A stretch of 64,000 nt of DNA from the NCBI RefSeq assembly GCF_034424315.1, contig NZ_CP139972.1:5394001-5458000 (forward strand), in the 5' to 3' direction. Source of the stretch: Chitinophaga sancti (GTDB lineage Bacteria; Bacteroidota; Bacteroidia; Chitinophagales; Chitinophagaceae). Shown in pieces: positions 1-15,085 of this stretch. Position numbers and translations under genes: made by a program. The notes under the pieces are model-generated. The model was not told the DNA's origin. It searched no databases and saw nothing but the letters and a program-made list of their open reading frames with translations. How positions within the stretch are numbered: the first letter of the stretch is position 1; every line of letters starts with the position of its first letter.

Positions 1-584
1 CGTTTAAACTAATGCCCAATACCTCCGGGGTACGTACTGCCAGCGAAGCGGTGTATGCTGCACAACTGGCAAGGGAAGCACTGGAAACAAACTGGGTCAA
101 ACTGGAAATACATCCGGATCCCCGTTACCTGATGCCGGATCCTGTTGAAACACTGCAAGCTGCGGAAGAACTGGTAAAACTAGGTTTCGTGGTCCTCCCT
201 TATGTACACGCAGATCCTGTATTGTGCAAAAGATTAGAGCAGGTGGGCGTAGCAGCAGTGATGCCATTGGGGGCACCCATAGGTAGTAACAAAGGCTTAC
301 GCACAGCCGATTTCCTGGAGATCATCATAGAACAGAGCCAGGTACCCGTAGTCGTCGATGCCGGGATTGGCAGCCCCTCAGATGCTGCAAAAGCCATGGA
401 GATGGGTGCCGATGCGGTTTTGGTCAACACGGCTATTGCGGTAGCAAAGGACCCTGTAGCCATGGCGCAGGCATTTGCAACAGCAATAGTGGCAGGCAGA
501 ATGGCTTACGAAGCAGGACTGGCACCGGTATACAGGCAGGCAGTAGCTTCCAGCCCTCTTATTGGATTCTTAGATGAAGTATAG
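1..584 (+). CDS. thiG: Thiazole synthase ThiG, 3' part (5' end outside window)
   Basis: ThiG builds the thiazole ring of thiamine from 1-deoxy-D-xylulose 5-phosphate, dehydroglycine (from ThiH in this type of pathway) and sulfur carried by ThiS. The reading frame is open from the left edge, so the gene is cut by the window; the ATG at 12 is an internal Met inside the conserved stretch PNTSG. The Schiff-base lysine lies in the motif WVKLE (codon near 99), and the phosphate-binding end of the TIM barrel is visible as [31 protein letters not shown]. Only 2 bases separate it from thiH, so the two are co-transcribed. The assignment is firm; the true start cannot be seen. Confidence 0.96.
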
Positions 585-586
585 CT

Positions 587-1696
587 ATGGCAGATTTTAA
601 AACACTCTTTTCCCAATACGATTGGGAGCAGGTAAAAGATAGCATTTATGCAAAAACAGCTGCAAATGTGGAGCAGGCATTGCATAACAAGCGGCGTACG
701 ATCGAAGACTTTAAGGCATTAATTTCCCCGGCTGCAGCGCCCTATTTACCAGCCATGGCTCACCTGAGTCAGCAGCTCACCCGGCAGCGGTTTGGTCATA
801 CCATGCAGTTATACATTCCGCTTTACCTGAGTAATGAATGTCAGAACATCTGTACCTATTGCGGGTTTAGTCTTGACAACAGGATAGCCCGCAAAACGCT
901 GAACAGGGAGGAGGTGCTGGCAGAAGTAAAGGCGATCAAGGAGATGGGATACGACCATGTATTGCTGGTAACAGGGGAGGCACAGCAGACCGTAGGACTT
1001 CCTTATTTCAGGGAAATGCTGGAGCTGATCCGGCCTTACTTTTCCAACATATCTATGGAGGTACAACCCATGGATCAGTCAGATTATGAAGCCCTCATTC
1101 CAATGGGTTTGCATAGTGTATTGGTGTACCAGGAGACCTATCATGAGGCTGACTATAAACTGCATCATCCCAAAGGACGAAAATCGAATTTCAATTATCG
1201 CCTGGAAACGCCCGACCGCCTGGGCAAAGCGGGTATTCACAAAATAGGACTGGGGGTATTGATTGGACTGGAGGATTGGCGTACAGATAGTTTCTTTACC
1301 GCATTGCATTTACAATACCTGGAAAGGACGTACTGGCAAACGCGGTACAGTCTTTCGTTTCCGCGTTTACGCCCCTGTGCGGGTGGCCTGATGCCCAAGG
1401 CGGTGATGAGTGACCGGGAACTGGTACAACTGATCTGTGCATATAGATTACTATCTCCTGAGCTGGAACTAAGTCTTTCAACACGGGAATCTCCCCGCTT
1501 CAGGGATCATGTGATCCAATTGGGTATTACTACTATGAGTGCAGGCTCACGTACCAACCCGGGTGGCTATACAATGGGGGATGATTCGCTGGAGCAGTTT
1601 GAAATTTCGGATGAACGGGATCCGGCGGAGATAGCGGCTATGCTTCGAAACAATGGATACGAGGCGGTGTGGAAAGATTGGGATAAAGCATTCTGA
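587..1696 (+). CDS. thiH: 2-iminoacetate synthase ThiH (radical SAM)
   Basis: ThiH cleaves tyrosine to p-cresol and 2-iminoacetate (dehydroglycine), the glycine-derived substrate of ThiG. The 369-residue length is normal. The radical-SAM cluster motif C-x3-C-x2-C is at C85, C89 and C92 in ECQNICTYCGFS, and the C-terminal half has the ThiH/biotin-synthase-like pattern, including SAGSRTNPGGY. It follows thiG by 2 bases, the usual thiG-thiH order of the anaerobic-type thiamine pathway of Bacteroidota. It is the last gene of the operon: two hairpins follow, one of them a good terminator. Confidence 0.97.
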   Translation: MADFKTLFSQYDWEQVKDSIYAKTAANVEQALHNKRRTIEDFKALISPAAAPYLPAMAHLSQQLTRQRFGHTMQLYIPLYLSNECQNICTYCGFSLDNRIARKTLNREEVLAEVKAIKEMGYDHVLLVTGEAQQTVGLPYFREMLELIRPYFSNISMEVQPMDQSDYEALIPMGLHSVLVYQETYHEADYKLHHPKGRKSNFNYRLETPDRLGKAGIHKIGLGVLIGLEDWRTDSFFTALHLQYLERTYWQTRYSLSFPRLRPCAGGLMPKAVMSDRELVQLICAYRLLSPELELSLSTRESPRFRDHVIQLGITTMSAGSRTNPGGYTMGDDSLEQFEISDERDPAEIAAMLRNNGYEAVWKDWDKAF

Positions 1697-1758
1697 CAGC
1701 GCTTTATGGCCACGCATACTGAACCGGTATTTCAAGCCCACCGTTGGTGTAACTCACC

Positions 1759-1801
1759 GGCGCGAAACGGCTTCCGCCTTCGGCAGAATTCGTTTCGCGC
1801 C
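1759..1801. repeat. 11-bp stem-loop downstream of thiH
   Basis: A perfect 11-bp inverted repeat (GGCGCGAAACG at 1759-1769, complement at 1791-1801) encloses a 21-base loop. It is followed by TATTTT, so it could act as a weak terminator for thiH or as a 3' mRNA-stabilising stem. It may also be a dispersed palindromic repeat, which cannot be judged from one copy. Confidence 0.5.
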
Positions 1802-1815
1802 TATTTTCCTGATAA

Positions 1816-1855
1816 AAAAATAACAGTTCCGCCTGCAGGCGGAACTGTTATTTTT
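1816..1855. terminator. Bidirectional intrinsic terminator between thiH and the DUF2383 gene
   Basis: A nearly perfect 20-bp palindrome, centred at 1835/1836, with A-run on the left and T-run on the right. It reads as a rho-independent terminator on both strands and separates the + strand thi operon from the converging - strand gene at 1997-2458. Confidence 0.85.
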
Positions 1856-1996
1856 ACCTAAATCCATTACTGAAATTTGTTACTTATAGACATAAGTAGC
1901 TGCTTAATATTCAAATGTAGGTTGCACATAATGAACAACAGCATTACGTTTCATTTTGAACAAAAAGAACAGCTATGCTTATAATGAACAATCTGT

Positions 1997-2458
1997 TCAG
2001 TGAACGACTTTTTCCAAATCACGATAAGTTCTCACCGTATCATGTGCACTTCTCAGCGCCCTGCGCTGATTGGCCACCAGCTCACGGATACTATATGGCA
2101 TGGTAATACCTGAGCCCAGCACATCTTCATACGTACGCTGGGTGGCATCTTCTCCATACTCGCATGAAGACAGGATAGAGTGCCTGTCATGCCCTGAAAA
2201 AGTAGCTTTTACATCCATCCAGGTTCTATAGAGTTTACCATAAATAGTAGTATTGTGTGTAGGTTCCTCGCCACCATCCTGCAATATACCTTTCAGTTGA
2301 TCTATATAAGTAATACTTTCTTCTCTCATTCTTTGGAACAGTGCTTTCAGATCGGCATCATCTGTCTGATCAATGGCCTTCAGGTATCCAGCTTCACGGT
2401 CATTATTGATCATGATCAGGTCATTCAGGGCTTCTATCAATTTCTCGTTCAATTGCAT
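1997..2458 (-). CDS. PA2169-type four-helix-bundle protein (DUF2383)
   Basis: A 153-residue, all-helical soluble protein. The N-terminal 110 residues match the DUF2383 / PA2169 ferritin-like four-helix bundle: LNDLIMINNDREAGYLKAI is the typical first helix, and ITYIDQLKGIL and YRTWMDVKATFSG follow in the expected order. Proteins of this family are small and stress-associated, and their biochemical role is not settled. No signal peptide is seen. It is a single-gene unit, convergent with thiH and divergent from the small membrane gene at 2783, a neighbour of the same stress/envelope kind. Confidence 0.85.
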   Translation of the reverse strand: MQLNEKLIEALNDLIMINNDREAGYLKAIDQTDDADLKALFQRMREESITYIDQLKGILQDGGEEPTHNTTIYGKLYRTWMDVKATFSGHDRHSILSSCEYGEDATQRTYEDVLGSGITMPYSIRELVANQRRALRSAHDTVRTYRDLEKVVH

Positions 2459-2782
2459 GATGATAGTTTTAAAAATGAATGAAGAATGTTGTGTTCTTTC
2501 AATATGAAATTCAAAAATTCTACCAGCCTTTTCGGATACGGGAGTTTAGCGGCTGATTCGCAATGAATATACTTACTGCTAACGGAAGATGCTTATCAGT
2601 AGCGTACATTTTACCTCCCTCCGGGGAATATGTTCTACAAAGCCTTTTGGCCGCAAATGCAGTATGTATAAGGATTCCGGGGCGCTAAAACGGTTTATAC
2701 CTCGGTTAGAAGCACATCTTAAAGAAGAACTGCTTAACTGGCATAAATTTTCTATTCCTTAAGATAACCAAATCTTTTTGAT
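2459..2782. other. Intergenic region with no convincing gene
   Basis: This 324-base divergent gap must carry the promoters of the DUF2383 gene (- strand) and the lmo0937-type gene (+ strand). A 57-codon + strand open frame (2589-2762) ends in a hydrophilic stretch, but it has no TAnnTTTG element, no clear ribosome binding site and no family resemblance, so I do not call it a gene. No tRNA or strong hairpin is seen. Confidence 0.5.
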
Positions 2783-2935
2783 ATGAACGGCTTACTTTAT
2801 TTAATTGCGATTATTCTGATCATCGGATGGATTTTGGGCGTGTTTGTTTACTCCGCAGGCAGCCTTATACATACCCTACTGGTTTTAGCGATTATCGCTA
2901 TCCTCGTAAATATTATACGCGGTAGGGCTGTTTAA
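2783..2935 (+). CDS. lmo0937-family small membrane protein (50 aa)
   Basis: Translation gives a 50-residue protein, MNGLLYLIAIILIIGWILGV onward, ending NIIRGRAV. It has two hydrophobic segments (about residues 3-22 and 30-45) separated by the short YSAGSLIH turn. This layout, the SAG turn and the IRG end match the lmo0937 / DUF5670 family of tiny inner-membrane proteins common in Bacteroidota. Function is unknown; relatives often sit near general-stress and envelope genes. A hairpin and then a strong terminator follow it. The start is the only ATG in frame. Confidence 0.8.
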   Translation: MNGLLYLIAIILIIGWILGVFVYSAGSLIHTLLVLAIIAILVNIIRGRAV

Positions 2936-2968
2936 CAGGCTACCTCAGAATAAGAAATTTCATCGGCA

Positions 2969-3007
2969 GCAGCCGACTGAAAGAGGGCATCCTCTTGAGT
3001 CGGCTGC
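2969..3007 (+). repeat. Two-part stem-loop after the lmo0937-type gene
   Basis: A 10-bp outer stem (GCAGCCGACT, 2969-2978, with its complement at 2998-3007) encloses a second 6-bp stem (AAGAGG/CCTCTT). It lacks a T-run. It lies directly before the intrinsic terminator at 3012-3048 and probably forms the 3' end of the 2783-2935 transcript. Confidence 0.6.
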
Positions 3008-3011
3008 ACAG

Positions 3012-3048
3012 AAAATTGCTTTTACCTCCGGTGAAAGCAATTTTTTTT
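3012..3048 (+). terminator. Strong intrinsic terminator
   Basis: Left arm 3012-3026 and right arm 3030-3044 form a stem of about 15 bp with a 3-base loop, followed by an uninterrupted T-run to 3048. It ends the transcript of the small membrane gene just before the promoter of the next gene. Confidence 0.9.
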
Positions 3049-3057
3049 GCAATAACG

Positions 3058-3065
3058 TACCTTTG
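3058..3065 (+). promoter_or_regulatory. TAnnTTTG (-7) promoter element, TACCTTTG
   Basis: An exact match to the Bacteroidota -7 consensus, only 5 bases before the ATG at 3071. If it is used, the transcript would start at or next to the start codon. Confidence 0.6.
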
Positions 3066-3070
3066 CCTCC

Positions 3071-4180
3071 ATGAGAAAATATCTTTTGTTTAGCCTGCTT
3101 TTTGCAGCCTGCAGCACCTCCCGTCATCCTGTGAATACATCGGATGTATCTCAGCTCCGCCTCTTACACAAACTCATCGTTCCATACAACACCACCTTCA
3201 ATGGCACGACAGTAGGAGGGCTCTCAGGCATCGACTACGACAGTGCCCGCAACGTATATTATCTCATTTGCGATGATCGCTCAGAACACGAAGCTGCCCG
3301 GTACTACACCGCCCGGGTGCCAGTCAATGGCGAACCGGTGACCTTCACTGCCGTGACTACACTCCCTATGCGCGATGGTCAGCCCTTTCCCGCCGGCAAA
3401 AACCTGGCACCCGACCCGGAAGCCATGCGTTACAATCCCAACACCGGTCACCTGGTCTGGAGCAGTGAGGGAGAGCGTATCGTCAACGCCAAAGACACCA
3501 TTCTAAAAGATCCTGCTGTATACGAAATATCCCGCGACGGGCATTTCCTTGATACTTTTTCTATCCCTTCTCAAATGCACATGCAGGCAGGCAGCAATGG
3601 CCCCCGCAGGAACGGCACTTTTGAAGGGCTGGGCTTTACCCCGGATGGTAAATATATGTTCGTGAGTGTGGAAGAACCCCGCTATGAAGACGGTCCCCGT
3701 GCAGGCCTGAAAGATACGACTGCCTGGATCCGCATTATAAAATACGACCTGCAAACGAGGCAAGCCATTGCCCAGTTTGCCTACAAACTGGCACCGGTAG
3801 CCGCCGCTCCGGTACCTCCCGATTCATTTGCCATCAATGGCATTCCTGATATTCTTGTGTTGTCAGAAAACCAGCTTCTCATCATGGAACGCTCTTTCTC
3901 CACAGGCGTAAAAAATTGTACTATCCGCCTCTACAAGGCAGACCTTTCTCATGCCACAAATGTATCGGCTATACAATCTTTGCAGACAGATACCCACTTT
4001 ACACCTGTTGTGAAAAAGCCTTTATTTAATTTTCAAAGTCTGCAGACATATGTAGATAATGTGGAAGGAATGACTTTTGGCCCCCGCCTGCCAAACGGCC
4101 ACAGGAGCCTTATTTGTGTGGCTGACAATAATTTTTCAAACAAAGAAGAAACGCAGTTCTATATCTTCGATATTGAATAG
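3071..4180 (+). CDS. Esterase-like activity of phytase family lipoprotein
   Basis: A 369-residue exported protein. The N-terminus MRKYLLFSLLFAACSTS is a lipoprotein-type signal with the likely lipidated Cys at 14. The rest has the phytase-like / esterase-like beta-propeller pattern (PF13449 type): GGLSGIDYD, the acidic DPEAMRYNPNTGHLVWSSEGE, and FEGLGFTPDGKYMFVSVEEP, ending VEGMTFGP..RSLICVADNNF. Substrate is unknown; family names rest on weak activities. It stands alone behind a terminator and has its own promoter. The lipobox has Phe at -3, slightly atypical, so anchoring is likely rather than certain. Confidence 0.85.
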   Translation: MRKYLLFSLLFAACSTSRHPVNTSDVSQLRLLHKLIVPYNTTFNGTTVGGLSGIDYDSARNVYYLICDDRSEHEAARYYTARVPVNGEPVTFTAVTTLPMRDGQPFPAGKNLAPDPEAMRYNPNTGHLVWSSEGERIVNAKDTILKDPAVYEISRDGHFLDTFSIPSQMHMQAGSNGPRRNGTFEGLGFTPDGKYMFVSVEEPRYEDGPRAGLKDTTAWIRIIKYDLQTRQAIAQFAYKLAPVAAAPVPPDSFAINGIPDILVLSENQLLIMERSFSTGVKNCTIRLYKADLSHATNVSAIQSLQTDTHFTPVVKKPLFNFQSLQTYVDNVEGMTFGPRLPNGHRSLICVADNNFSNKEETQFYIFDIE

Positions 4181-4314
4181 CAATAGTATTTTATCAATGA
4201 GTGGTATCATCTAACTGTATAGTTGGAGATCCAGACATTGTCTGCTATATTGGAGAATCATTCGGGAATCTGAATGTATAATCTATGCCAATTTTTAGAC
4301 TATCCGTGAAGACC

Positions 4315-5073
4315 CTATATTCCATTTGACGCAGTCAAAATAATAGGTTCTCCGCTCGTTACGAGCACCGTATGTTCATGCTGGGCCACAAAACTCCCAT
4401 CTTTGGTCACCAGGGTCCAGCCATCTCCTAATGTATCAGCATAGTTTGCCCCGGTAGAGATAAAGGTTTCAATAGCGACCACAGAATTGCTGCGGAAACG
4501 GTTTCGGTTGAACCGGTCGTAGAAGTTAGGGATCTCCCTGGGTGCTTCGTGCAGGCTTCTGCCTATACCATGGCCGACCAGGTTCCTGATCACCTTGTAT
4601 CCTTTTTCTTTGGCGGCATTTTCAACGATACGGCCAATGTGGGCCAGGCGAACTCCATCGCTGATATTGCTGATGGCCTTGTGCAGGATTTCGATAGAGG
4701 CATTGATAAGAGCAGTGTGCCTGAAAAGGTCTTCTCCCAGTACAAAAGAGGCACCGTTATCAGCATAATACCCCGCCAGTTCGCCAGATACATCAATGTT
4801 TACGAGATCGCCGGGTTGTAATATTTTCCCGGCGGAAGGGATCCCGTGGGCGACTTCGTTGTTCACGCTGATGCAGGTAAATCCCGGGAAATTATAGGTT
4901 AGTTTCGGTGCCGACCTGGCACCCATTTGAGTTAATAAAGCGCCGCCATACTCATCCAGTTCTTTTGTAGACATGCCGGGAGCGGCACATTGACGCATCA
5001 GCTGCAACACCTTGCCAACTACTTCGCTGATGGCCTGCATGCCGGATAGATCTGCTGTGGATGTAATGGACAT
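4315..5073 (-). CDS. map: Methionine aminopeptidase, type I
   Basis: Removes the N-terminal Met from new proteins in the cytoplasm. At 252 residues it has all five metal ligands of the pita-bread fold: D94 (NIDVSG), D105 (YYADNGASF), H168 (GHGIGRSLHE), E202 (AIETF) and E233 (QHEHT), with the substrate-binding H76 in NEVAHGIP. It is not in a ribosomal-protein operon here but in a short - strand group downstream of tmk (122 bases between). Bacteroidota often carry a second map among the ribosomal genes, so this may be the stand-alone paralogue. Confidence 0.95.
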   Translation of the reverse strand: MSITSTADLSGMQAISEVVGKVLQLMRQCAAPGMSTKELDEYGGALLTQMGARSAPKLTYNFPGFTCISVNNEVAHGIPSAGKILQPGDLVNIDVSGELAGYYADNGASFVLGEDLFRHTALINASIEILHKAISNISDGVRLAHIGRIVENAAKEKGYKVIRNLVGHGIGRSLHEAPREIPNFYDRFNRNRFRSNSVVAIETFISTGANYADTLGDGWTLVTKDGSFVAQHEHTVLVTSGEPIILTASNGI

Positions 5074-6174: not shown

Positions 6175-7392
6175 ATGTCCGAAGCTTTACCCATAGAAAA
6201 GGAGATCATCCGTTTGTTTGACTATACCCTGCATCCTTCTTCCAGCCAGCGCCTCTACGACATATTTTCGGGACCTCGTTTATCCTTTTCAGCGACGCTG
6301 GAGCGGCAGCAGTTATTACAGGCATTTTTATTTCACTGGGAGCGGATCCTGGGGTTTACCTATCATAAGGCGGATCTGCAGGAGGTGTATCAGTTTACGA
6401 CCTATATTGAGCTACCCGAAAGCTCTATATTTCAATACTTTGGGAAAGACAAGTACCAGTTGCAGGGCAGGTGTATGCAAGCGATCCGATTGCTGCGGAA
6501 TATTTATGGAAAATACCTGCTGCCATTACTGGGTACTCCTTTGCTGGAAGATTTTGCCGGGCCGGCGAAGGCGTATTATGAGGCGCTGGAAATAGACAAA
6601 TTACCGAAGGAGCTGACTTTTCAGCAGATCTTTGCATTTGCTGCGAAGTTGGTAATGTGCAGAGAGCGGGGCATAACGGCGAGGTTCTGGGATGCTTTGT
6701 TTGAATATGAGGCCTGGTGGTCGCTGGCTATGGGAACACGGAAGCATGGGTTTTCGATTCCGGCCTTTTCTGCGGATAATTTTGTGATAAAGCAGTTCTG
6801 GCACCCAATGGTGGAGAACCCGGTCAAAAACACCCTGCAAACGACGTGTAATATGATCGTATTAACGGGTCCGAATATGTCGGGGAAGTCGACGACCTTA
6901 AAAGCGATCGGGCTTTGTGTGGCATTGGCGCATTTGGGGCTGGCGGTGCCGGCGGAGGATTGCAGGATCCCGTTTTATGACCAGGTGTTGATTGCTATTA
7001 ATGTGACGGATGATCTGAAGAATGGGTTTAGTCATTTTATGCAGGAGATCGTGCATTTGAAGCATACGGCGATGCAGGCGAAGGAAGGGCAGCGGTGTTT
7101 TGCGATCTTTGATGAGATCTTCAGGGGTACGAATATCGATGATGCGATGGAGGTGACGGAGACGACGATTAGGGGATTGAGTCAGTTTAAGCAGTGTCAT
7201 TTTATTATATCTACGCATTTGTACCAGTTGCAGGGGGCATTGCCGGTGGCGTTGTATGAGCCTTACCAGTTGCGGGCGGGGATACGGGATGGGGTGCCAG
7301 TGAATAGTTATCAGCTGGATAGGGGCTGGTCTGATTTGAAGTTTGGAAGGCTGATATTTGAGCGGGAGGGGTTGGCGAAGTTGTTGGAATAA
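6175..7392 (+). CDS. MutS-family ATPase lacking the mismatch-recognition domain
   Basis: A 405-residue protein with only the MutS core and ATPase parts. Residues 1-220 are helical and resemble the lever/clamp region; the Walker A is GPNMSGKST at 232-240, the Walker B region is CFAIFDEIFRGT near 306-317, and the STH switch (IISTHLYQL) follows. There is no N-terminal domain with the Phe-x-Glu mismatch wedge and no Smr nuclease, so it is neither MutS nor MutS2. Short MutS-like proteins of this kind are widespread in Bacteroidota and their role is unknown. It is transcribed alone. Codon use changes to a strongly G-rich style over the last third. Confidence 0.85.
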   Translation: MSEALPIEKEIIRLFDYTLHPSSSQRLYDIFSGPRLSFSATLERQQLLQAFLFHWERILGFTYHKADLQEVYQFTTYIELPESSIFQYFGKDKYQLQGRCMQAIRLLRNIYGKYLLPLLGTPLLEDFAGPAKAYYEALEIDKLPKELTFQQIFAFAAKLVMCRERGITARFWDALFEYEAWWSLAMGTRKHGFSIPAFSADNFVIKQFWHPMVENPVKNTLQTTCNMIVLTGPNMSGKSTTLKAIGLCVALAHLGLAVPAEDCRIPFYDQVLIAINVTDDLKNGFSHFMQEIVHLKHTAMQAKEGQRCFAIFDEIFRGTNIDDAMEVTETTIRGLSQFKQCHFIISTHLYQLQGALPVALYEPYQLRAGIRDGVPVNSYQLDRGWSDLKFGRLIFEREGLAKLLE

Positions 7393-7465
7393 AGGATTTG
7401 TTTGCAGGGAGGGGATGTTGAAGTTGTTGAAATAAAGGATTTGTGGGAGGGAGGGGATGTTGATG
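7381..7465 (+). repeat. Imperfect 43-bp tandem duplication across the MutS-like stop codon
   Basis: The segment 7381-7423, which includes the last codons and stop of the MutS-like gene, is repeated almost exactly at 7424-7465 (TTGTTGRAATAAAGGATTTG, then GGGAGGGGATGTTGA). Copy 2 is one base shorter. It appears to be a recent local duplication that left the reading frame intact. Confidence 0.75.
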
Positions 7466-7612
7466 GCGCTATTAGGTATTGAAGCGGTTTATTGGTTTCG
7501 GTTTTGATATGTTTATAACCTGGGATGCTTTCGTGGTTATCTACCTGGGCTTTGCTTTTGTGGTTATCAGCGTTTTCAGATATGCAGCTCACGCTGTTAT
7601 CGGCTTTTTCAG

Positions 7613-8050
7613 TTATTGAGCAATCCGCTTCGCGGCAATTTTCCTATACGCTTTTAGGTATTTATTTAATCTCGCCACGTCTTTTTCTGTCACTTCCGGA
7701 ATGCGTTTCACATCCATATTATCAATAAGGTCGTTCATTTTTACGGCACAGGACAATGGATTTTGCAAGGTCCTATTTACAAAATGATCATAGTCTTCAT
7801 CCTCAGATAATTTAGTCACGCCTTTCAATGCTTCTACTAATTCCGGTGCCAATCCTTCATCAGCCAGTTGTTCGAAAGTCCAGTCTGTATCTTCGACGAC
7901 GTCATGTAATACGCCTACGATTTTTTCTTCGGGGGTAATGCCCATATTCATTACTCTTAGTACATGTGCAATGTAGGGGGCGCCGTATTTATCTTTCTGT
8001 CCATGATGGGCAGAAACGGCGATTTCAATGGCTTTTTCTAATGTCATCAT
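7613..8050 (-). CDS. Single-domain HD phosphohydrolase of the RelA/SpoT-hydrolase type
   Basis: A 145-residue stand-alone HD-domain protein. The SpoT/MESH1 hydrolase pattern is present: AHHGQKDKYGAPYIAHVLRV (His at 15 and 29), then VGVLHDVVEDT with the HD pair at 49-50 and ED at 53-54, and NDLIDNMD as the later Asp-containing helix. Full Rel/SpoT proteins carry synthetase, TGS and ACT domains, absent here, so this is likely a small alarmone hydrolase or a nucleotide/pyrophosphate hydrolase of related specificity. Two ATGs are adjacent at the start (8050 and 8047). It is a single-gene - strand unit. Confidence 0.82.
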   Translation of the reverse strand: MMTLEKAIEIAVSAHHGQKDKYGAPYIAHVLRVMNMGITPEEKIVGVLHDVVEDTDWTFEQLADEGLAPELVEALKGVTKLSEDEDYDHFVNRTLQNPLSCAVKMNDLIDNMDVKRIPEVTEKDVARLNKYLKAYRKIAAKRIAQ

Positions 8051-8333
8051 GCTTTAAGTTAGTAAATAAAATGGTTATGGCAAGGCGTGATGTATGTGCG
8101 ATTAAGGAACATGCCTGGCCATACCAGCATTAAAATGACTGAAATCTATCTTCAGTCATTACCCATGAATATGCTGGATGAAGAGAATTATAAAGTAATG
8201 CAGCTAATGGAATAAAACGGGGAAGGGCGGTGTACGCCCTTTCTCCTGCTTAATCCCTGCGGATTTAAAACATCACAAATTGCTGCAATTCAATAATTTA
8301 TCCTAATTTCATCAATCACTAAAAAAAGCGCTT
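8051..8333. other. Intergenic region with two small hairpins
   Basis: No gene is seen. A 9-bp hairpin (AATGACTGA at 8134-8142 and its complement at 8152-8160) and a 7-bp hairpin (8223-8229 with 8235-8241, AAGGGCG) are present. Neither has a good T-run on either strand. They may be remnants of terminators or small regulatory stems between the HD gene and higBA. Confidence 0.4.
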
Positions 8334-8362
8334 GTTACGTGACACGTAACATGGTATATTTG
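8334..8362 (+). promoter_or_regulatory. higBA promoter with embedded palindromic operator
   Basis: TTG at 8332-8334 and TATATTTG at 8355-8362 are separated by 20 bases, a good Bacteroidota promoter. Between them lies a perfect 17-base palindrome, GTTACGTG-A-CACGTAAC (8334-8350). A dyad that fills the spacer is where a HigA-type antitoxin would bind to repress its own operon. The -7 element ends 4 bases before the higB ATG, so the message may be leaderless. Confidence 0.75.
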
Positions 8363-8366
8363 TATT

Positions 8367-8645
8367 ATGATCGTCAGTATACAGCATAAAGGGCTTAAAC
8401 GCCTTTGGACAAAAAACGATGCGTCCAAGCTGCCACAAGATCAGGTAAGCAAGATCAGAACCATTTTGTTCCTGCTTAACAACGCCCAAAAAGTGGACGA
8501 TATGAACTTTCCAGGTTCCAATTTGCACCCGTTAAAAGGAGATTTAAACGAATAGTGGTCGGTTACAGTCCGCGCTAATTGGCGGATTATCTTCCAGTTT
8601 GAAGATGGGAAAGCCTATCTGGTGGATTATCTTGATTACCCTTAA
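8367..8645 (+). pseudogene. higB: HigB-type toxin interrupted by an in-frame amber codon
   Basis: HigB toxins are RelE/ParE-fold mRNA interferases that act on the ribosome. The frame from 8367 reads a normal HigB N-terminus (MIVSIQHKGLKRLW through NFPGSNLHPLKGDLNE) and stops at TAG, 8553-8555. The same frame then continues with the exact C-terminal part of the family, WSVTVRANWRIIFQFEDGKAYLVDYLDYP, and ends at TAA 8643-8645. Ignoring TAG, the length is 92 codons, the usual size. In relatives the residue before WSV is usually aromatic, so a single change of a Tyr codon would give TAG. The missing part contains the core strand and the catalytic-side Arg residues, so the 62-residue product should be inactive unless TAG is read through or is a sequence error. 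Confidence 0.85.
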
Positions 8646-8657
8646 AAGGATTTAGCA

Positions 8658-8987
8658 ATGCTAAAAAGAGGAATGCCGCCCGTTCATCCGGGCAATGTAT
8701 TAAGAGAATTATATTTAGAACCGCTGGGCCTGACAAACGGCGATGCAGCGGCCAATCTTGGTGTTACCCGTAAAACATTGTCTTTGTTGTTAAACGAACA
8801 CCAGGGCATCAGTGCGGAAATGGCGTTACGCCTTGCCAAAGCCTTTGGCACTACACCAGAATTATGGATGAATATGCAACGTGATTTCGATTTGTGGAAT
8901 GCAGGAAAGAAAGTGGCGATTACAAAGATTAAAGCATTTCGCCGTGTTAAAAAGGCTCCTGCCGAAAATGTTGTATTGAAGGGCTAG
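8658..8987 (+). CDS. higA: HigA-family antitoxin (XRE-type DNA-binding)
   Basis: A 109-residue antitoxin with the HigA signature PPVHPGNVLRELYLEPLGLT followed by an XRE helix-turn-helix (GDAAANLGVTRKTLSLLLNE) and TTPELWMNMQRDFDLW. It should neutralise HigB and repress the operon at the palindrome before higB. It starts 12 bases after the end of the (broken) higB frame with AAAGGA as ribosome binding site. The gene looks intact, so it is now an orphan antitoxin or autorepressor if higB is dead. The C-terminal end (KIKAFRRVKKAPAENVVLKG) is basic. Confidence 0.92.
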   Translation: MLKRGMPPVHPGNVLRELYLEPLGLTNGDAAANLGVTRKTLSLLLNEHQGISAEMALRLAKAFGTTPELWMNMQRDFDLWNAGKKVAITKIKAFRRVKKAPAENVVLKG

Positions 8988-9076
8988 GCAATTCGTCCTG
9001 TTCAGGTGTTGGCACACACATAATAAAAATGTCGCGCCGTTGTCATACAGATAACTTTCCTGTGCAACTCTTATGC

Positions 9077-9150
9077 AAATGGAAAAAGGCGTTCAATGAT
9101 AATCTCTAAAATCCTTTACCATCTTGTGCTCCCAACAGGGCATGCTCCTG
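9077..9150 (-). repeat. Displaced tRNA 3' end (attachment-site copy, far end of island)
   Basis: Bases 9120-9144 repeat without mismatch the 25 bases at 11215-11239, which form the 3' end of the tRNA(CAU) gene and its downstream flank. After one mismatch the match continues for six more bases. On the other side the similarity runs back to 9077, over a decayed copy of the tRNA terminator (compare 11171-11212). This is the arrangement left when an element inserts into a tRNA 3' end and restores it from its own copy. Confidence 0.8.
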
Positions 9151-9356
9151 TTCGGTGATGTAGTCTTAGCACGTCATGTAGTAATGATGGGTTTTTTACC
9201 TGAAAGGGATATAATATACCTGTATGAATTAGGCCGGATTATTCAATCCAAATACCCGGCTTCAATTCAAAATATAAACTGGTGACATACTACTTTGTTG
9301 AGTTCGAAGATTACATTGCGCGATTAATCAATTTTCAACATGAATTTCAACCTTAG
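9142..9356 (+). pseudogene. Possible frameshifted gene remnant at the island's left end
   Basis: From the ATG at 9142, inside the attachment repeat, a 47-codon frame reads MLLFGDVVLARHVVMMGFLP and on to YPASIQNINW before TGA at 9283. In the +1 frame the sequence continues as LVTYYFVEFEDYIARLINFQ and ends at TAG 9354. The two pieces are protein-like and would join by one frameshift near 9278. I recognise no family. It could be chance, since there is no clear ribosome binding site. Confidence 0.3.
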
Positions 9357-9442
9357 CTGCGTTTGGAATTCATTACCCTCCTACCCGATAACGTATTTTA
9401 AAATTGGTATCTTTATTAACCTAATTGGTGTAATGTATAGAT

Positions 9443-10516
9443 ATGAAGGATTTAACGAACTCAGTTGTTGATAGAAAAAATATATTAAATAATGATGTAG
9501 CGATCAAGGAAATCTACGATCAAATAGGTTTTCATGGAGTTATGTTTGACAGTAAATATCGTTACACTAAAGGGCAATTGGCTTACTTTTTTGAAGTTGA
9601 TGTAAGAACAATTGAACGACTCCTTGAAAACAATAATGATGAACTCGTAGAAAGTGGGTATGAATTATTCACAGGTAGGAGGCTGAGGGAATTGCGGGAG
9701 GCTTTTGTTACCTCTAAATCAAATTTTCAATCTGATGTTCCCGGCATTAATGTCGGAGACATCCAAGAATTAATTAATAATCAATCGATTAGTTCTAAAG
9801 CGGCGAGTATTGGTATTTTTACCTTTAAGGCCTTTTTAAATATAGGAATGTTGCTAACAAACTCGGAAAGAGCAAAAGATGTTAGGCAAGCTATTTTGAA
9901 TATTGTTATTGACGTCCTTAATAAGAAGCTTGGAGGAAGCACTAAGTATATTAATCAACGTGAGGAAGAATTTTTGCCAAGTGCTATAAGAGAATACAAT
10001 TATAGACAAGCCTTTACCAATGCCTTAGATCATTATATCCATGAAAATAAATTTAAATATGCACAGTTAACGGATAAGATTTATAAAAGTATTTTTAAGG
10101 AAAATGCTAAAGAGTACCGACAAATTTTAAATCTTAATTCAAAGGGAAATGCGCATTTCACAATGTACTCAGAGGTTCTTAATATTATTGTAAGTTATGA
10201 AAGTGGATTTGCGGATTTTTTAAAGAAGGAATACGAAAAGACCAATCAAAAACTAAGGCTTTCAGAAGCTCATATCGTTTTTAAAATATTTGAGGAACTA
10301 ATGGATGAAACGCTAGAGCCTTTAAGAGAGAAAGCTCGTGGTCTAATGGCGAGTAGAGATATGACGTTTCGAGATGCACTGGATGAAAAGCTAAAAGACT
10401 ACGTTTCAAACGTTAGTACAGATGACTTTAATAAATTTTTAGGAGAGAAAAGCAAGTCATTGGAAGAACGAATTGAGGAAAATAGAGACGTTTTTATTCG
10501 TTTAAAAGAGCGATAG
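9443..10516 (+). CDS. Antirepressor/RhuM-like DNA-binding protein, likely partner of Doc
   Basis: A 357-residue, mostly helical protein of no named family that I can assign with certainty. Residues 40-65 (TKGQLAYFFEVDVRTIERLLE) look like a helix-turn-helix of the RhuM/phage-regulator kind. Residues 127-155 (FTFKAFLNIGMLLTNSERAK) resemble the BRO/antirepressor motif. The rest is helical, with a charged C-terminal end (about 305-357) of the length and character of a toxin-neutralising segment. The stop codon is followed after one base by the doc ATG, so translation is coupled. By position it should be the antitoxin and autoregulator, though it is four to five times larger than Phd, the usual Doc antitoxin. 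Codon use is AT-rich, unlike the neighbours outside the island. Confidence 0.7.
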   Translation: MKDLTNSVVDRKNILNNDVAIKEIYDQIGFHGVMFDSKYRYTKGQLAYFFEVDVRTIERLLENNNDELVESGYELFTGRRLRELREAFVTSKSNFQSDVPGINVGDIQELINNQSISSKAASIGIFTFKAFLNIGMLLTNSERAKDVRQAILNIVIDVLNKKLGGSTKYINQREEEFLPSAIREYNYRQAFTNALDHYIHENKFKYAQLTDKIYKSIFKENAKEYRQILNLNSKGNAHFTMYSEVLNIIVSYESGFADFLKKEYEKTNQKLRLSEAHIVFKIFEELMDETLEPLREKARGLMASRDMTFRDALDEKLKDYVSNVSTDDFNKFLGEKSKSLEERIEENRDVFIRLKER

Positions 10517-10517
10517 A

Positions 10518-10946
10518 ATGGAATTATTATATTTTGATTTGGACCATGCAATTAAGGCGCATGACAAGGTATTAGAGGTCTCAGGTGGATTGTCTGGAAT
10601 TTTACATAGTGGTAGATTAGAAAGCATCTTAACACATGTTCAAAATGATGATTACTATTCATCATTTGAAGAAAAATTAACTCATATTGTTTTCTCGGCT
10701 ATTACATCACATTGTTTTTCTGATGGTAATAAAAGAACATCTATTGCTTTAGGTGCTTATTTTATGGGAATTAACGGGCTGGATATATTCGTCGATAAAT
10801 TTATTATAGAGATGGAAAATATTTGTGTCCACGTAGCTAATAATCTAATCGATAAGGAATTGCTCCAGGAAATAATAACATCAATTATAGAGGATGAAGA
10901 TTACAGCGAAGAACTAAAGTTAAAAATAATAGCGTCAATAGGTTGA
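10518..10946 (+). CDS. doc: Doc-family toxin (death on curing, Fic fold)
   Basis: A 142-residue protein with the Fic-fold core H65-C-F67-S-D69-G70-N71-K72-R73-T. The Asn-Lys-Arg end of the motif, in place of the Gly-x-Gly-Arg of AMP-transferases, is that of Doc, which phosphorylates elongation factor Tu and stops translation. Length is close to Doc (about 126 residues) with a short acidic C-terminal extension (IIEDEDYSEELKLKI). No inhibitory (S/T)xxxE(G/N) helix is evident within it, so inhibition must come from a partner, most simply the upstream protein. It starts one base after that gene's stop. AT-rich composition supports transfer. Confidence 0.85.
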   Translation: MELLYFDLDHAIKAHDKVLEVSGGLSGILHSGRLESILTHVQNDDYYSSFEEKLTHIVFSAITSHCFSDGNKRTSIALGAYFMGINGLDIFVDKFIIEMENICVHVANNLIDKELLQEIITSIIEDEDYSEELKLKIIASIG

Positions 10947-10959
10947 TGAGAATGTATTA

Positions 10960-10990
10960 GAGGCAATATTGTTTATGTACTTATTGCCTC
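10960..10990 (+). terminator. Weak hairpin after doc
   Basis: A 9-bp stem (GAGGCAATA 10960-10968 with TATTGCCTC 10982-10990) and a 13-base loop 14 bases after the doc stop. There is no T-run, so termination may be partial or rho-dependent. Confidence 0.45.
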
Positions 10991-11170
10991 AGACCCAGCC
11001 CAAACCTTATCCCCCCTTGATCACCCCCTTACCGGTATCCCCCCGATCAAACATTCAATTTGAATCCAAAAAATTACAAATACGTTTCGGTAACGTCCAG
11101 GGCTAATAAGAAGTTTTAATGGGTAGGAGGGGAGGAAATTCAATTTGAAATGTGTATCGTTTTATGTCTC
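10991..11170. other. Non-coding right end of the island, C-rich then AT-rich
   Basis: No gene is seen. TATCCCCCC occurs at 11008-11016 and 11036-11044, both close to GATCA. The palindrome ATTCAATTTGAAT (11053-11065) recurs in shortened form at 11138-11149, and GGGTAGGAGGG (11121-11131) is the inverse of 9376-9386. These may be recognition or recombination sites of the former element. Confidence 0.4.
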
Positions 11171-11176
11171 AAATGA

Positions 11177-11212
11177 AAAAAGGCTTTCAGCGTCAATTCG
11201 CTAAAAGCCTTT
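11177..11212 (-). terminator. tRNA terminator
   Basis: On the - strand, a 14-bp stem with one mismatch and a 6-base loop, followed by a run of T, 10 bases after the tRNA. A decayed copy of the same hairpin lies at 9080-9118. Confidence 0.85.
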
Positions 11213-11221
11213 CTCATCTTG

Positions 11222-11295
11222 TGCTCCCAACAGGGCATGATCCTGTGACCCCCTGATTATGAGTCAGGTGCTCTAACCAACTGAGCTATAGGAGC
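11222..11295 (-). tRNA. tRNA-Met (anticodon CAU)
   Basis: The - strand folds as a full cloverleaf: acceptor GCTCCTA with TTGGGAGC (one G-U pair), D-arm GCTC..GAGC with AGTTGGTT loop, anticodon stem CCTGA/TCAGG with loop CTCATAA, T-stem ACAGG/CCTGT, discriminator A. The anticodon is CAU. The GGGGTCACAGG variable/T region resembles elongator Met rather than the lysidine-type Ile tRNA, but CAU alone does not decide. The T-loop is ATCATGC, not the usual TTCRANY. CCA is not encoded. It is the probable insertion site of the adjacent island. Confidence 0.9.
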
Positions 11296-11405: not shown

Positions 11406-13934
11406 TTATTCCTCCTCCTCCACCTCTATATAGAAATTCTCATCATCTATTTCAAAATCCCCTGCCGTCTGGTTATGAAGGGTCAGGGTCTTCCATTCAA
11501 GCGTAGGATAAATAAATCCCTGGCCCTTCACCCTCGCCGGCATGCGGAAATCCGCAACATCTGCCACCCAGCGATACTTCACCATTAAGTTAGCCCCCTT
11601 TTCAGCAAGAGAATATTCCAAACGGGGAATACGGGTGTAATGGAGATACTGATCGAATAAATAATGATAATCCTTTCCTGTAAAAGCGCAGATAAACTGC
11701 TCCAGCTCAGCAGCAGATAAAGTCTGGTAACGGAAATGCTCCTGGATAGCAGGTAGTAAACGTTGCCAGCGCGCACTGTCATTGATCACATTTTGTAAGG
11801 TGTACAACATCAGGCTTCCCTTGGTATACATATCATTGATATCATAAAAGATGTCATTCACATTGTAAAACCCGGTTACCGGGCACTTGTTCTTTACCTG
11901 CGCCCGCTGATCATTTAAAAACTCCCGCATCATCACCGCTCCGTCCCGGCACCCCGCATATACACTTTCTGCATAAGCCGCAAAAGCCTCATGGATCCAC
12001 ATATCCGCAATGTCTTTACAACTGATATTATTTCCCCACCACTCATGTGCCGCCTCATGCCAGACCATAAAGGCAAATTCAGGATGAGGGTCCGCAGGGA
12101 TCTTTCCGATACATACACCACTTTGGTGCTCCATGGGGTAAAGGCTTTCTACCAATGTAAAACCATCCTTCGGAAAAGGGTAGGGGCCAAAATGCTTTTC
12201 GTAACACGCTAACATTGCCGGCACTTCCCTGAAATAAACTTTTGCCTGCTCCTGGTGATAGGGCATCACGTAGTAGTTCACACCCTGATCCATATAGTGA
12301 GTATACTTTCCAATACTAAATGTGACATTGTAATTATTAATAGGATAACTCACCGCCCATTCATACCTGGTCTTGTGATCAGGTAGCGGTACCTGTCGCA
12401 GTAAGCTACCATTAGAGATTTCTGAAAACCCCTCCGGCACCGTGATCCAGATCCGCATACTATCCGGTTCGTCAGATAAATGATCCTTACAGGGCCACCA
12501 TAAACTAGCTCCTGATCCCTGACACACCACCTGTGCCCAGGGATTTCCCAGGTCATCCTGATCCCATAACACCCCACCATTCATAGGAATACTTTTATCC
12601 GGTACCTGGGGCACTCCTTCATAATATATAGAGATCTCCTGCTCTTCACCTGCAGGCTGCAACCCTGGAAACTGAATAAAGACAGCGTTTGCCTCGCGGG
12701 TATATTGCAAAGACTGCCCTTTGAACAGGATCTTTTGAATGCGCATATTCGCATAGAGGTCTACCTGCATCCTGTTGAAAGAGGAGATGATTTTATACCG
12801 CATAAGCGTATTGCCACTGATGGAATGCTGGTTAAGATCAACTTCCGCATCCAAATGATAAAAAGTCACATCATAGCAGGAGCGGAGCGGAGACAACATT
12901 CCCCTGAGTGTATCAGCATGGGTAAAATTCTGCGGCCGGCTGGAAACAATTGAATGTTGAGACAAGGAGGAACGACACGTATCTGGAGGGGGGATTTTCG
13001 TATTTGAAGAAGAAGCTTTTGTATTAGTAGAAGAAACACCTGTATCTGAATAAGAAACTTCTCTATTAACAGAAGAATTTAATGGTTTAAGCTGAGATGA
13101 ATCTACCAGAACACTTCCCATACCTGCATCCACCGACTTTACCGAAAGCAGAAAATCCGCCCGCCAGGGCGCATCTTTTATGCGCCGCTTTTTACTATTC
13201 ACCACCGTTTCCCAATGCCTTCTTACATCCTGCAAATAATACTTTCCACCCCGCTTTTGATACGTCATCACCACCTTTATCTGCTCAAACTCCATAGACG
13301 CTTTCAGATAAGCCGCCATCATTGAATACCGGATCCCCCCTCTGCCATGTCTGTTCACATGCCTGATCCCTGCCGGACTAGCTTGCATTTCACACTTCAC
13401 CAGCGCCAAATCTGCCGTATCTAAAAATAAGCGCGCACTCACAAATGCTTTCTTATTACGATCCTTCGGCATCACCGTTATCACCAGCTGATCCTCCATC
13501 AAAGTATCCACGTAGTAATTATAATACCTGAAATAACCGGGGTTCAATATTGAATACTTCGTATTCGCATATTTTATGATATCCTCATGCAATGCCCCTC
13601 CCGGTGCATTTGAAATATGACTGATCCAGTTGTAAAACGCGAAATCAGGATTATTGGAGAAAGATTTTTTTCGGCCGGACTTTGTCACCTTCCACTGATC
13701 TCCTTTTATTGCTAATTCAGATTCATTATAATTCAGGGTATCCTCCGCCAGCCGGATATTCTCCTGGTAAAATGCAGTCATTTGATAGGCCCCAGTATCA
13801 TAGTTCCGGGGAATAGCGGCAATCATCTTTTTTACAATTTCCAATCCCTGCCCCGGGCGAACAGCTACCTCCCGGAGTGTAACAACCTGGGCAAAAACGG
13901 TCACGGGAAACAACAGGAGAAACAAATACTTCAT
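11406..13934 (-). CDS. M1-family zinc aminopeptidase with extra N-terminal domain
   Basis: A secreted zinc peptidase. The frame is open to 13985, but the Met at 13934 starts a clean signal peptide (MKYLFLLLFPVTVFAQ), so I use that start (842 residues). Residues 20-265 are a domain (IVKKMIAAIPRNYDTGAYQMTAFYQEN) like that found in carboxypeptidase-regulatory-like outer-membrane proteins of Bacteroidota. A Ser/Thr-rich linker of heptads follows, then the M1 part with HEAAH at 626-630 and the third ligand E649 in WIHEAFAAYAE. The gene ends in an acidic tail (IEVEEEE). The usual GAMEN motif appears in altered form (LYPMEHQSG). It follows the AraC-type gene on the same strand. Confidence 0.88.
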   Translation of the reverse strand: MKYLFLLLFPVTVFAQVVTLREVAVRPGQGLEIVKKMIAAIPRNYDTGAYQMTAFYQENIRLAEDTLNYNESELAIKGDQWKVTKSGRKKSFSNNPDFAFYNWISHISNAPGGALHEDIIKYANTKYSILNPGYFRYYNYYVDTLMEDQLVITVMPKDRNKKAFVSARLFLDTADLALVKCEMQASPAGIRHVNRHGRGGIRYSMMAAYLKASMEFEQIKVVMTYQKRGGKYYLQDVRRHWETVVNSKKRRIKDAPWRADFLLSVKSVDAGMGSVLVDSSQLKPLNSSVNREVSYSDTGVSSTNTKASSSNTKIPPPDTCRSSLSQHSIVSSRPQNFTHADTLRGMLSPLRSCYDVTFYHLDAEVDLNQHSISGNTLMRYKIISSFNRMQVDLYANMRIQKILFKGQSLQYTREANAVFIQFPGLQPAGEEQEISIYYEGVPQVPDKSIPMNGGVLWDQDDLGNPWAQVVCQGSGASLWWPCKDHLSDEPDSMRIWITVPEGFSEISNGSLLRQVPLPDHKTRYEWAVSYPINNYNVTFSIGKYTHYMDQGVNYYVMPYHQEQAKVYFREVPAMLACYEKHFGPYPFPKDGFTLVESLYPMEHQSGVCIGKIPADPHPEFAFMVWHEAAHEWWGNNISCKDIADMWIHEAFAAYAESVYAGCRDGAVMMREFLNDQRAQVKNKCPVTGFYNVNDIFYDINDMYTKGSLMLYTLQNVINDSARWQRLLPAIQEHFRYQTLSAAELEQFICAFTGKDYHYLFDQYLHYTRIPRLEYSLAEKGANLMVKYRWVADVADFRMPARVKGQGFIYPTLEWKTLTLHNQTAGDFEIDDENFYIEVEEEE
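12978..13061 (-). repeat. Four degenerate 21-bp units in the M1 linker
   Basis: Units at 12978, 12999, 13020 and 13041 (each 21 bases beginning GTAT) encode four seven-residue repeats, read on the - strand as SDTGVSS, TNTKASS, SNTKIPP and PDTCRSS. They form the flexible linker between the N-terminal domain and the peptidase. Copy number may vary between strains. Confidence 0.7.
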
Positions 13935-13981
13935 GGAATCTTTTTTCCACAAAGCAAGGGGAATACCCGCCACCAGTCTAC

Positions 13982-15085
13982 TCAAATCCGGATTTGATCA
14001 TTCATTTTGATGTATTCTTTTGGTGACATCCCCACCATATTTTTGAAGGCCCGCTGAAAAGTGGGGAGCGAATTAAACCCACATTCCAGGGCAAGCCCCA
14101 TAATCGTAAGCTGTTCAAAACCGGGCTCCGAGACCTTTTTTTTGAAAGCCTCAATACGGTAACTATTTACAAATTCATTGAAGCTCTTATTCAGATGCTG
14201 ATTTAAAACCGCCGAAATACTTTTGGGAGGAATAGCAATATGCTCAGATAATAATGTAAGGTTCAATGCCGGGTTCAGGAATAATCGATCCTCCTCCATG
14301 GCTTTTTTCAATAAAGGCACCACAGTGGCAATCAGTCGTTCCTCCAGCGGGGCAGGACTGGCCTTTGTCTCCCTTTCCGGCAGCAACAAGCCTTTGATCC
14401 CTAAAAAGTACACGATCATTACCATCGGGATATATATGGGGTACCAATCCACCGCATCCAGGAGCTTATCCGTCAGCTGAGGGATTACATAGGGTATTAA
14501 ATAAATTAACCATAGTACCTGGAAAGCCATGAACACCCCGGTAAATTGTTTCATCCATTTCAAACGGTCTTTTGCCAGGTTGAAACCTTCCAGATGCCGG
14601 TAAGAAAGAAACAGATAGGTGCTAATCGATGCCCAGCGGGGTATATCCGAATACACATTATAGGTATCTATAAATTTCACCCAGGGCTGGCTATTTCTTG
14701 CGAACAGGCCCACGATTATGCCCCCTACATAGATGGCAGCCACCGCCTGGGGCACTACATCCAGGACCACTGGCCAGAAATGCCGGCGATCCTGCCGGCT
14801 TAAACGAAAATCCGGATCGGTGATCGACCTGACATAAAAAAAGATCAATGGTCCAAAGGGCATCACGATGATCAATGGCAAAAAATTCAGGATAAAGCGG
14901 ATAACATCAGGCAGCCTGGACACACCTTCCAGGTACATATTCAATACTGCCAGGGTGATTAATAAGATCAGGATCCCCAGCAGGCGATTCGCATATTTGT
15001 TCTTAGTGGAAAAGAAAAGTAGTCCACACATAATGAACCCCTGGAGGGTTCCCAACAACATCAATGTATTGAAAGTAAGATGCAT
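13982..15085 (-). CDS. AraC-family regulator with N-terminal membrane domain
   Basis: A 367-residue protein with about seven hydrophobic segments in residues 1-225, a short linker, then an AraC DNA-binding domain (about 265-365): LLSEHIAIPPKSISAVLNQH is the first helix-turn-helix and IMGLALECGFNSLPTFQRAF with FKNMVGMSPKEYI the second. Membrane-bound AraC regulators of this type are common in Bacteroidota and probably sense an envelope or extracellular signal. Its stop lies 48 bases before the M1 peptidase start, so they may be one transcript and the peptidase is a plausible target. Confidence 0.9.
   Translation of the reverse strand: MHLTFNTLMLLGTLQGFIMCGLLFFSTKNKYANRLLGILILLITLAVLNMYLEGVSRLPDVIRFILNFLPLIIVMPFGPLIFFYVRSITDPDFRLSRQDRRHFWPVVLDVVPQAVAAIYVGGIIVGLFARNSQPWVKFIDTYNVYSDIPRWASISTYLFLSYRHLEGFNLAKDRLKWMKQFTGVFMAFQVLWLIYLIPYVIPQLTDKLLDAVDWYPIYIPMVMIVYFLGIKGLLLPERETKASPAPLEERLIATVVPLLKKAMEEDRLFLNPALNLTLLSEHIAIPPKSISAVLNQHLNKSFNEFVNSYRIEAFKKKVSEPGFEQLTIMGLALECGFNSLPTFQRAFKNMVGMSPKEYIKMNDQIRI

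Follow-up and report, generated by a model that had tools for sequence, protein, structure and literature searches.

A PDC-M59 gene pair between two copies of a tRNA-Met 3' end in Chitinophaga sancti: a probable remnant of an integrative element

Cis-mobilizable elements (CIMEs), as they are characterized in PMC5704250 and PMC7563491, keep the attachment sites of an integrative element and have lost its genes for integration and transfer; the size range given for classical examples is 1.2-13 kb (PMC7563491). Here a stretch of 64,000 nucleotides from Chitinophaga sancti (NZ_CP139972.1, positions 5,394,001 to 5,458,000; termed the window), whose genome consists of a single contig of 8.42 Mb, is analysed with respect to a segment of about 2.1 kb in which two genes matching the phage-defence candidate PDC-M59 (termed M59A and M59B or, together, M59AB) lie between a tRNA-Met(CAU) gene and a displaced copy of that gene's 3' end. 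The favoured reading, which is given a probability of about 0.72, is that positions 9120-11239 are the CIME-like remnant of an integrative element that entered the 3' end of tRNA-Met(CAU) and whose integrase has been lost. More generally, the site is best read as a turnover hotspot whose last surviving genes include toxin-antitoxin or defence modules.

An initial annotation of the window had described a 25-bp exact direct repeat of the tRNA(CAU) 3' end, accompanied on the left by a decayed copy of the tRNA terminator, around an AT-rich segment with two intact genes and no integrase, and this description holds in each of its parts. The 25-mers at 9120-9144 and 11215-11239 are identical, occur nowhere else in the window, and are embedded in a 49-nt match of 90% identity (9103-9151 versus 11198-11246); that they represent the 3' end of tRNA-Met(CAU) follows from the position of the window's sole ARAGORN tRNA. 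The right terminator is predicted to fold far more stably than its decayed copy on the left (Table 1), the intact counterpart of which, in the sister genome G014, has a predicted folding energy of -19.6 kcal/mol (z -4.8); the left copy and adjoining terminator of the window (9061-9151) are 83.7% identical to the left copy of that sister. The left match is limited to the last ~31 nt at the 3' end of the tRNA and is not called as a tRNA by ARAGORN, so that the left copy is most probably not part of a second, decayed tRNA gene, as the initial annotation had allowed that it might be. In 7001-9077, outside it, no significant match to a further tRNA copy is seen. A displaced 3' copy is rare within this genome: when the 8-20 kb downstream of each of its 59 tRNA genes was searched, two were found to have a separate partial 3' copy, and only the tRNA-Met(CAU) of the window has one of 25 bp. 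(The remaining matches are whole neighbouring tRNA genes or, once, a 23-bp match of 87% identity inside a tRNA cluster.)

Table 1. Features of the tRNA-Met(CAU) locus, in window coordinates
Feature	Position	Strand	Basis
tRNA-Met(CAU), target gene	11221..11295	minus	ARAGORN; 3' end on the 11221 side = right repeat copy
Right copy of the 25-bp exact repeat, attachment-site-like	11215..11239	minus	repeat comparison
Left, displaced tRNA 3'-end copy	9120..9151	minus	25 bp exact at 9120-9144
Intact tRNA terminator hairpin	11170..11217	minus	RNA fold -23.7 kcal/mol, z -6.5
Decayed tRNA terminator copy	9077..9118	minus	RNA fold -5.8 kcal/mol, z -0.75
Putative integrase arm-type site, related to ATGTATCAAA	11163..11174	plus	matrix match; ungapped alignment with element right ends
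PDC-M59A, predicted winged-helix and helical DNA-binding partner	9443..10516	plus	PADLOC 1.4e-92; alignment; model and fold search
PDC-M59B, Doc-like Fic protein	10518..10946	plus	PADLOC 3.9e-32; Pfam Fic; PHROG Doc-like toxin; PDB Doc proteins; alignment
Imperfect direct repeat beside left terminator	9059..9081	minus	by-eye comparison with other loci
HigB-like toxin, premature stop, outside left copy	8367..8555	plus	Pfam PF05015
HigA-like antitoxin, outside left copy	8658..8987	plus	Pfam HTH_3

The segment is occupied by two intact open reading frames (ORFs) of 357 and 142 aa, neither of which is an integration or transfer gene. No integrase is found in the 64-kb window with a purpose-built profile, and none of the 12 PF00589 matches of the genome lies within it; integrase calls here, as well as at the genus loci and M59AB loci considered below, rest on purpose-built profiles, which may miss distant integrases. 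Compositionally, the segment has a G+C content of 33.6%, as against a mean of 46.4% (standard deviation 2.1, minimum 41.2) in 114 other 2-kb intervals, and a tetranucleotide distance of 0.446, as against a mean of 0.214 and a maximum of 0.364. After normalisation for G+C, however, its tetranucleotide distance only equals the maximum of the other intervals (0.368), which indicates that much of the compositional signal is AT content. A weak 26-nt inverted repeat (77%; 9366-9391 and 11116-11141) around M59AB was considered as a possible feature, but was judged too weak to read and may be due to chance.

Both components of PDC-M59 are present, A being followed by B. M59B also matches TIGR01550 (DOC_P1) above its cut-off (2.8e-14) and retains an intact Fic motif, HCFSDGNKR, the motif residues of which are invariant in all five aligned proteins. 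Doc, the toxin of the Phd-Doc system, phosphorylates EF-Tu. M59A matches no Pfam or NCBIfam family, and hence no Phd/YefM-type antitoxin; its predicted fold may be DdrC-like. (Two matches of M59A to PDB sequences resemble chance matches and were set aside.) A literature search found no publication on PDC-M59.

The occupants of the same tRNA site were compared in 40 of at least 71 same-genus genomes, which were chosen by match score and the presence of two tRNA matches rather than at random. These loci share their genes to the right of the tRNA and vary on its 3' side. M59A and M59B are found by tblastn at the tRNA-Met site in none of the 40; among the matches listed, 3 of 118 other genomes contain M59AB DNA (G116, C. 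costaii G009 and Chitinophaga sp. YR573, G035), in all cases elsewhere. Presence of the pair at the same place in distant relatives, which the initial annotation had named as evidence against its proposal, is thus not observed at these loci. Relatives have instead either a single tRNA or a differently filled site, and such comparisons bear out the earlier proposal of an island inserted at a tRNA 3' end. A literature search found no publication on this tRNA-Met site.

The most informative relatives are three sister genomes (G031, G014 and G046) that form one clade with the window (support 100/100). In each, an insert of about 0.7 kb follows the tRNA, consists of YefM and YoeB only, has no integrase, and ends in a copy of the tRNA 3' end of 48-58 bp. 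(The genes were identified by Pfam on the G014 pair; the translations in G031 and G046 are near-identical.) Over 578 bp, the cassettes of G031 and of G014/G046 have an identity of about 90%. The closest relative of the window is G031, with support of 99/98 on a 5.5-kb alignment and of only 81/62 on a 2.6-kb alignment, and a clade of the three sisters that excludes the window is rejected (p 0.0006). Because the sisters share a cassette while the tree places the window with G031, replacement or a loss followed by a gain is likely: if YefM-YoeB was gained once only, it was already present in the common ancestor and has since been lost from the window's lineage or replaced there; it may also have been gained more than once, independently.

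Integrase-bearing elements occur at 4 of the 40 genus loci (G064, G038, G054 and G045; L087-L090), where they span 9-15 kb between a 45-nt copy of the tRNA 3' end and the tRNA. From left to right they comprise the tRNA copy, the integrase, the cargo, a relaxase region and the tRNA. In G064, Pfam confirms both the relaxase and a primase-like protein; the other three elements have proteins with matching starts. Their cargo includes a CAP12/Pycsar-type TIR protein (G064), a ThsB-like TIR protein (G038) and an IetS-like subtilase (G054); the 507-aa cargo protein of G045 has no match in the searches. Empty sites are available for two of them: the left flank of the G038 element continues into the single tRNA of G044 (80% identity over 2720 columns), and that of the G054 element into the single tRNA of G059 (89% over 1605 columns). 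An apparent IS3-type transposase was seen by eye in L090.

These elements share an end signature. Each of the four 20-kb loci contains exactly four copies of ATGTATCAAA, all on one strand and nowhere else in the locus, arranged as pairs 12 bp apart with one pair just inside each element end; because the G064 integrase has the arm-DNA-binding domain PF17293, these repeats are read as arm-type sites. A weight matrix built from the 16 sites of the four elements, and thus from none in the window, ranks position 11163 of the window third-best in 64 kb on both strands, and this match lies at the expected place, next to the terminator. For this reason the right end of the segment most likely derives from the tRNA-Met element family or from one near it.

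Other genus loci differ again. When 12 single-tRNA genus loci were extended 20-40 kb leftward, neither a left copy nor an integrase was found, and 8 of the 12 have GATACATG-type repeats beside the tRNA, which suggests that there has been much decay at the site. In G048 (L113, 13734-16446) a DNA methylase and a type II restriction enzyme occupy about 2.6 kb between a tRNA-like copy and the tRNA-Met; the left copy there is a decayed full-length tRNA-like sequence, called tRNA-Ile (aat), and no integrase is found at the locus. AbiD (G030) and HipA (G057) genes lie beside the tRNA without a left copy. Such toxin-antitoxin and defence neighbours were picked by eye from the ORF lists of 24 of the 40 loci, without a systematic count, and many of the 24 have ordinary genes beside the tRNA. 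In G027 (L120, 8204-10060), an erythromycin-esterase-family gene lies between a weak copy (78%) of the terminator and tRNA 3' end and the tRNA-Met itself. On the other side of the tRNA, M1-peptidase and AraC-type genes (11406-15085 in the window) lie 5' of it in the window and the three sisters, and 3' of it in G041 and G048; the tRNA and this gene pair have thus changed places in the window's clade.

The association of M59AB with tRNA genes extends beyond this site. M59A is followed by a match to M59B at 69 of 70 loci (67 of the 70 being distinct); the other lies at a contig end. A tRNA 3' end faces M59B from within 1 kb in five of the 70, the window included, where 0.35 would be expected (P 3e-5); without the window four remain (P 4.6e-4). 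A search for the two genes beside tRNA ends, which the initial annotation had suggested, thus yields four further cases; the five facing tRNAs are Met (window), Phe (C. skermanii), Glu (Chitinophaga sp. YR573), Asn (Flavihumibacter) and Arg (Flavobacterium). At the tRNA-Phe locus, right-flank matches of other genus members stop about 60 bp or less from the 3' end of the tRNA; at the tRNA-Glu locus, the two closest genomes (G013 and G051) match rightward from the tRNA 3' end and not into M59AB, in both cases among the matches listed. No left tRNA copy was found within about 10 kb at either locus (L033 and L054), and neither has an integrase match within its 20-kb locus. The Flavihumibacter case, from a metagenome-assembled genome (L044, 8372-12474), is a complete element of 4.0 kb extending from an exact 42-bp tRNA-Asn copy to the tRNA-Asn, in the order tRNA copy, integrase, M59A, M59B, HEPN protein, tRNA, with an identical pair of 22-bp repeats inside both ends.

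The family as a whole is sparse: at the level of the class 11 of 395 genomes have it, and at that of the order 10 of 396 (the host genome being counted in both). Of 89 M59AB loci, nine have an integrase no more than 2.2 kb away; two of these are flagged as duplicates. M59A occurs in one plasmid record and four phage records, and its relatives are found in four streptococcal satellite phages: in Javan742 it is followed by a small gene and then an integrase, and in Javan319 by an integrase with no annotated gene between. Among the IMG/VR loci, 17 of 18 were scanned for tRNAs (L289, where only a fragment matched, was left out) and none was found, except for an odd transfer-messenger RNA call in L280.

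The history proposed for the segment is as follows. A tyrosine integrase would have placed an element in the 3' end of tRNA-Met(CAU), and the element would have brought a new tRNA 3' end, a terminator of its own and an arm site for an integrase; the original end of the tRNA and its terminator would have been displaced leftward, to decay there; and the integrase and any transfer genes would have been lost later, leaving the two attachment-site copies around PDC-M59AB. The pair may then have been kept as a toxin-antitoxin or abortive-infection pair, in which M59B would modify a cell target unless restrained by the DNA-binding M59A. The addiction-driven retention suggested in the initial annotation would fit, because the corresponding spot in the sister species has retained a toxin-antitoxin pair of another kind. 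What this history draws on directly, at the level of sequence, is the two copies, the two terminators, the lack of an integrase, the foreign composition, the match to an arm site on the right, and the differing occupants in relatives. The family of the inserting integrase, the former presence of an integrase of the element's own, and retention through the function of the pair are inferred.

Several observations weigh against this history. Comparison of the inner flanks (9145-9450 and 10940-11220) in six frames with the ORF set reveals no relic of an integrase or of an element backbone, so that a former integrase is postulated rather than seen. Neither a second right unit nor a left arm pair is recognisable in the window by the matrix, and the left copy, at 25-31 nt, is shorter than the 45-nt copies of the integrase-bearing elements. 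In those elements, moreover, the genes for mobilisation are found between the cargo and the tRNA, and thus either two deletions or a different parent element would be needed to arrive at the present arrangement. Right-end repeats of the same kind also occur at eight genus loci with neither a left copy nor an integrase in about 50 kb, so that the repeat alone proves no live element. Finally, 65 of the 70 M59AB loci have no facing tRNA 3' end within 1 kb.

The initial annotation had left undecided whether the segment is the last remnant of a larger element or a very small satellite; of these, the comparative data favour the remnant, and the helper-dependent satellite is less supported. The latter would never have had an integrase, consisting instead of a tRNA 3' end, a terminator and arm sites around a defence module, and would be moved in trans by the integrases of tRNA-Met elements. 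That sister species have two integrase-free cassettes at this site, M59AB and YefM-YoeB, which are unrelated to each other, that the right end retains an arm-like site, and that M59AB lies beside tRNA-Phe and tRNA-Glu in two other Chitinophaga likewise without an integrase match, all accord with this. It nevertheless appears unlikely: though the host genome has 12 PF00589 proteins, five of which lie no further than 2 kb from the 3' end of another tRNA, none is a close relative of the tRNA-Met element integrase (the best match being 42% over 52 residues, E 6.4e-6); no left arm pair is recognisable in the window; and the Phe and Glu cases have no left tRNA copy within 10 kb. A broader and just as doubtful form of this idea is that Chitinophaga tRNA 3' ends serve as docks for integrase-free single-module cassettes (YefM-YoeB, PDC-M59AB and perhaps the restriction-modification pair), each with little beyond an attachment site, terminator and arm sites, which are swapped by integrases acting in trans and held by addiction, and which would together make up a minimal mobile cassette system.

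Less probable still is that homologous recombination between the tRNA repeats and flanks swapped YefM-YoeB for M59AB, without any integrase acting in this lineage. The sharing of a YefM-YoeB cassette at the same place by G031 and G014/G046, combined with a tree that groups the window with G031, is what such an exchange would leave, but the right end of the window is unlike that of the sisters in its terminator and following repeat, and resembles the genus elements in these respects, while no trace of YefM-YoeB is seen in the inner flanks. It is, lastly, highly improbable that the left copy descends from a second tRNA of a tandem array, with M59AB as an ordinary insertion between two tRNA genes: the full-length decayed tRNA-like copy lying 2.6 kb from the tRNA in G048 offers a precedent, but the left copy of the window comprises only the 3' part of the tRNA, and so do those of the sisters and of the four integrase-bearing elements.

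Just beyond the left tRNA copy lies a HigB-HigA pair (8367-8987), in which HigB has a premature stop and HigA is open; possibly it is an older and more decayed layer of the same hotspot. The imperfect repeat beside the left terminator differs in type, when compared by eye, from the right-end repeat, and may mark the arm sites of an older element. Elsewhere in the genome, the tRNA at position 1482635 has an 18-bp exact copy of its 3' end 4.1 kb away, and 1482635-1486820 (L235, about 135-4320) is another possible tRNA-bounded segment, of 4.1 kb, with no integrase match nearby.

Taken with its sisters, the locus forms a series in which a tRNA integration site is reduced to attachment copies and one toxin-type module, with survivors that differ by lineage. 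It also provides the PDC-M59 defence candidate with a mobile context, comprising the 3' ends of tRNA genes, a complete element of 4 kb with an integrase, and satellite phages, and offers a compact case for asking whether integrase-free remnants can remobilise and whether addiction retains them.

Compared with known systems, the gene pair resembles Phd-Doc toxin-antitoxin modules in that M59B is Doc-like with the Fic motif residues and stands second in a two-gene operon; it differs in its partner, which at 357 aa has no Phd/YefM match and a predicted fold that may be DdrC-like. The Chitinophaga tRNA-Met elements have the same tRNA, the same kind of right-end repeat and, in three of four, defence-type cargo, but they possess an integrase, relaxase/primase-type genes and 45-nt copies, whereas the window has none of these genes and a copy of 25-31 nt. 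The Flavihumibacter element likewise carries M59AB between a tRNA 3' copy and the tRNA, in the same orientation, and differs in its integrase, HEPN protein, paired repeats at both ends and exact 42-bp copy. Unlike an integrative and mobilizable element (IME), the segment has no integrase or mobilisation genes of its own; and unlike satellites resembling phage-inducible chromosomal islands (PICIs), in which integrase and replication genes surround the cargo, it has neither of these in the window, although M59A relatives do occur in such satellites. The exchange of defence modules at fixed integration sites is shared with the E. coli hotspots of mobile elements surveyed in PMC10121019, where the islands, as the survey describes them, have at least 10 genes; that of the window has two, and no integrase. 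The closest likeness is to the CIMEs of PMC5704250 and PMC7563491: attachment copies and cargo are kept, integration and transfer genes are lost, the size falls within 1.2-13 kb, and the site is also used by related integrative elements. The differences are that descent from an integrative and conjugative element or IME is deduced rather than observed, that the segment does not lie in tandem with a living element, and that it belongs to the Bacteroidota, whereas the descriptions drawn on here concern streptococci. The locus is, in short, a known kind of element and a well-documented new example of it.

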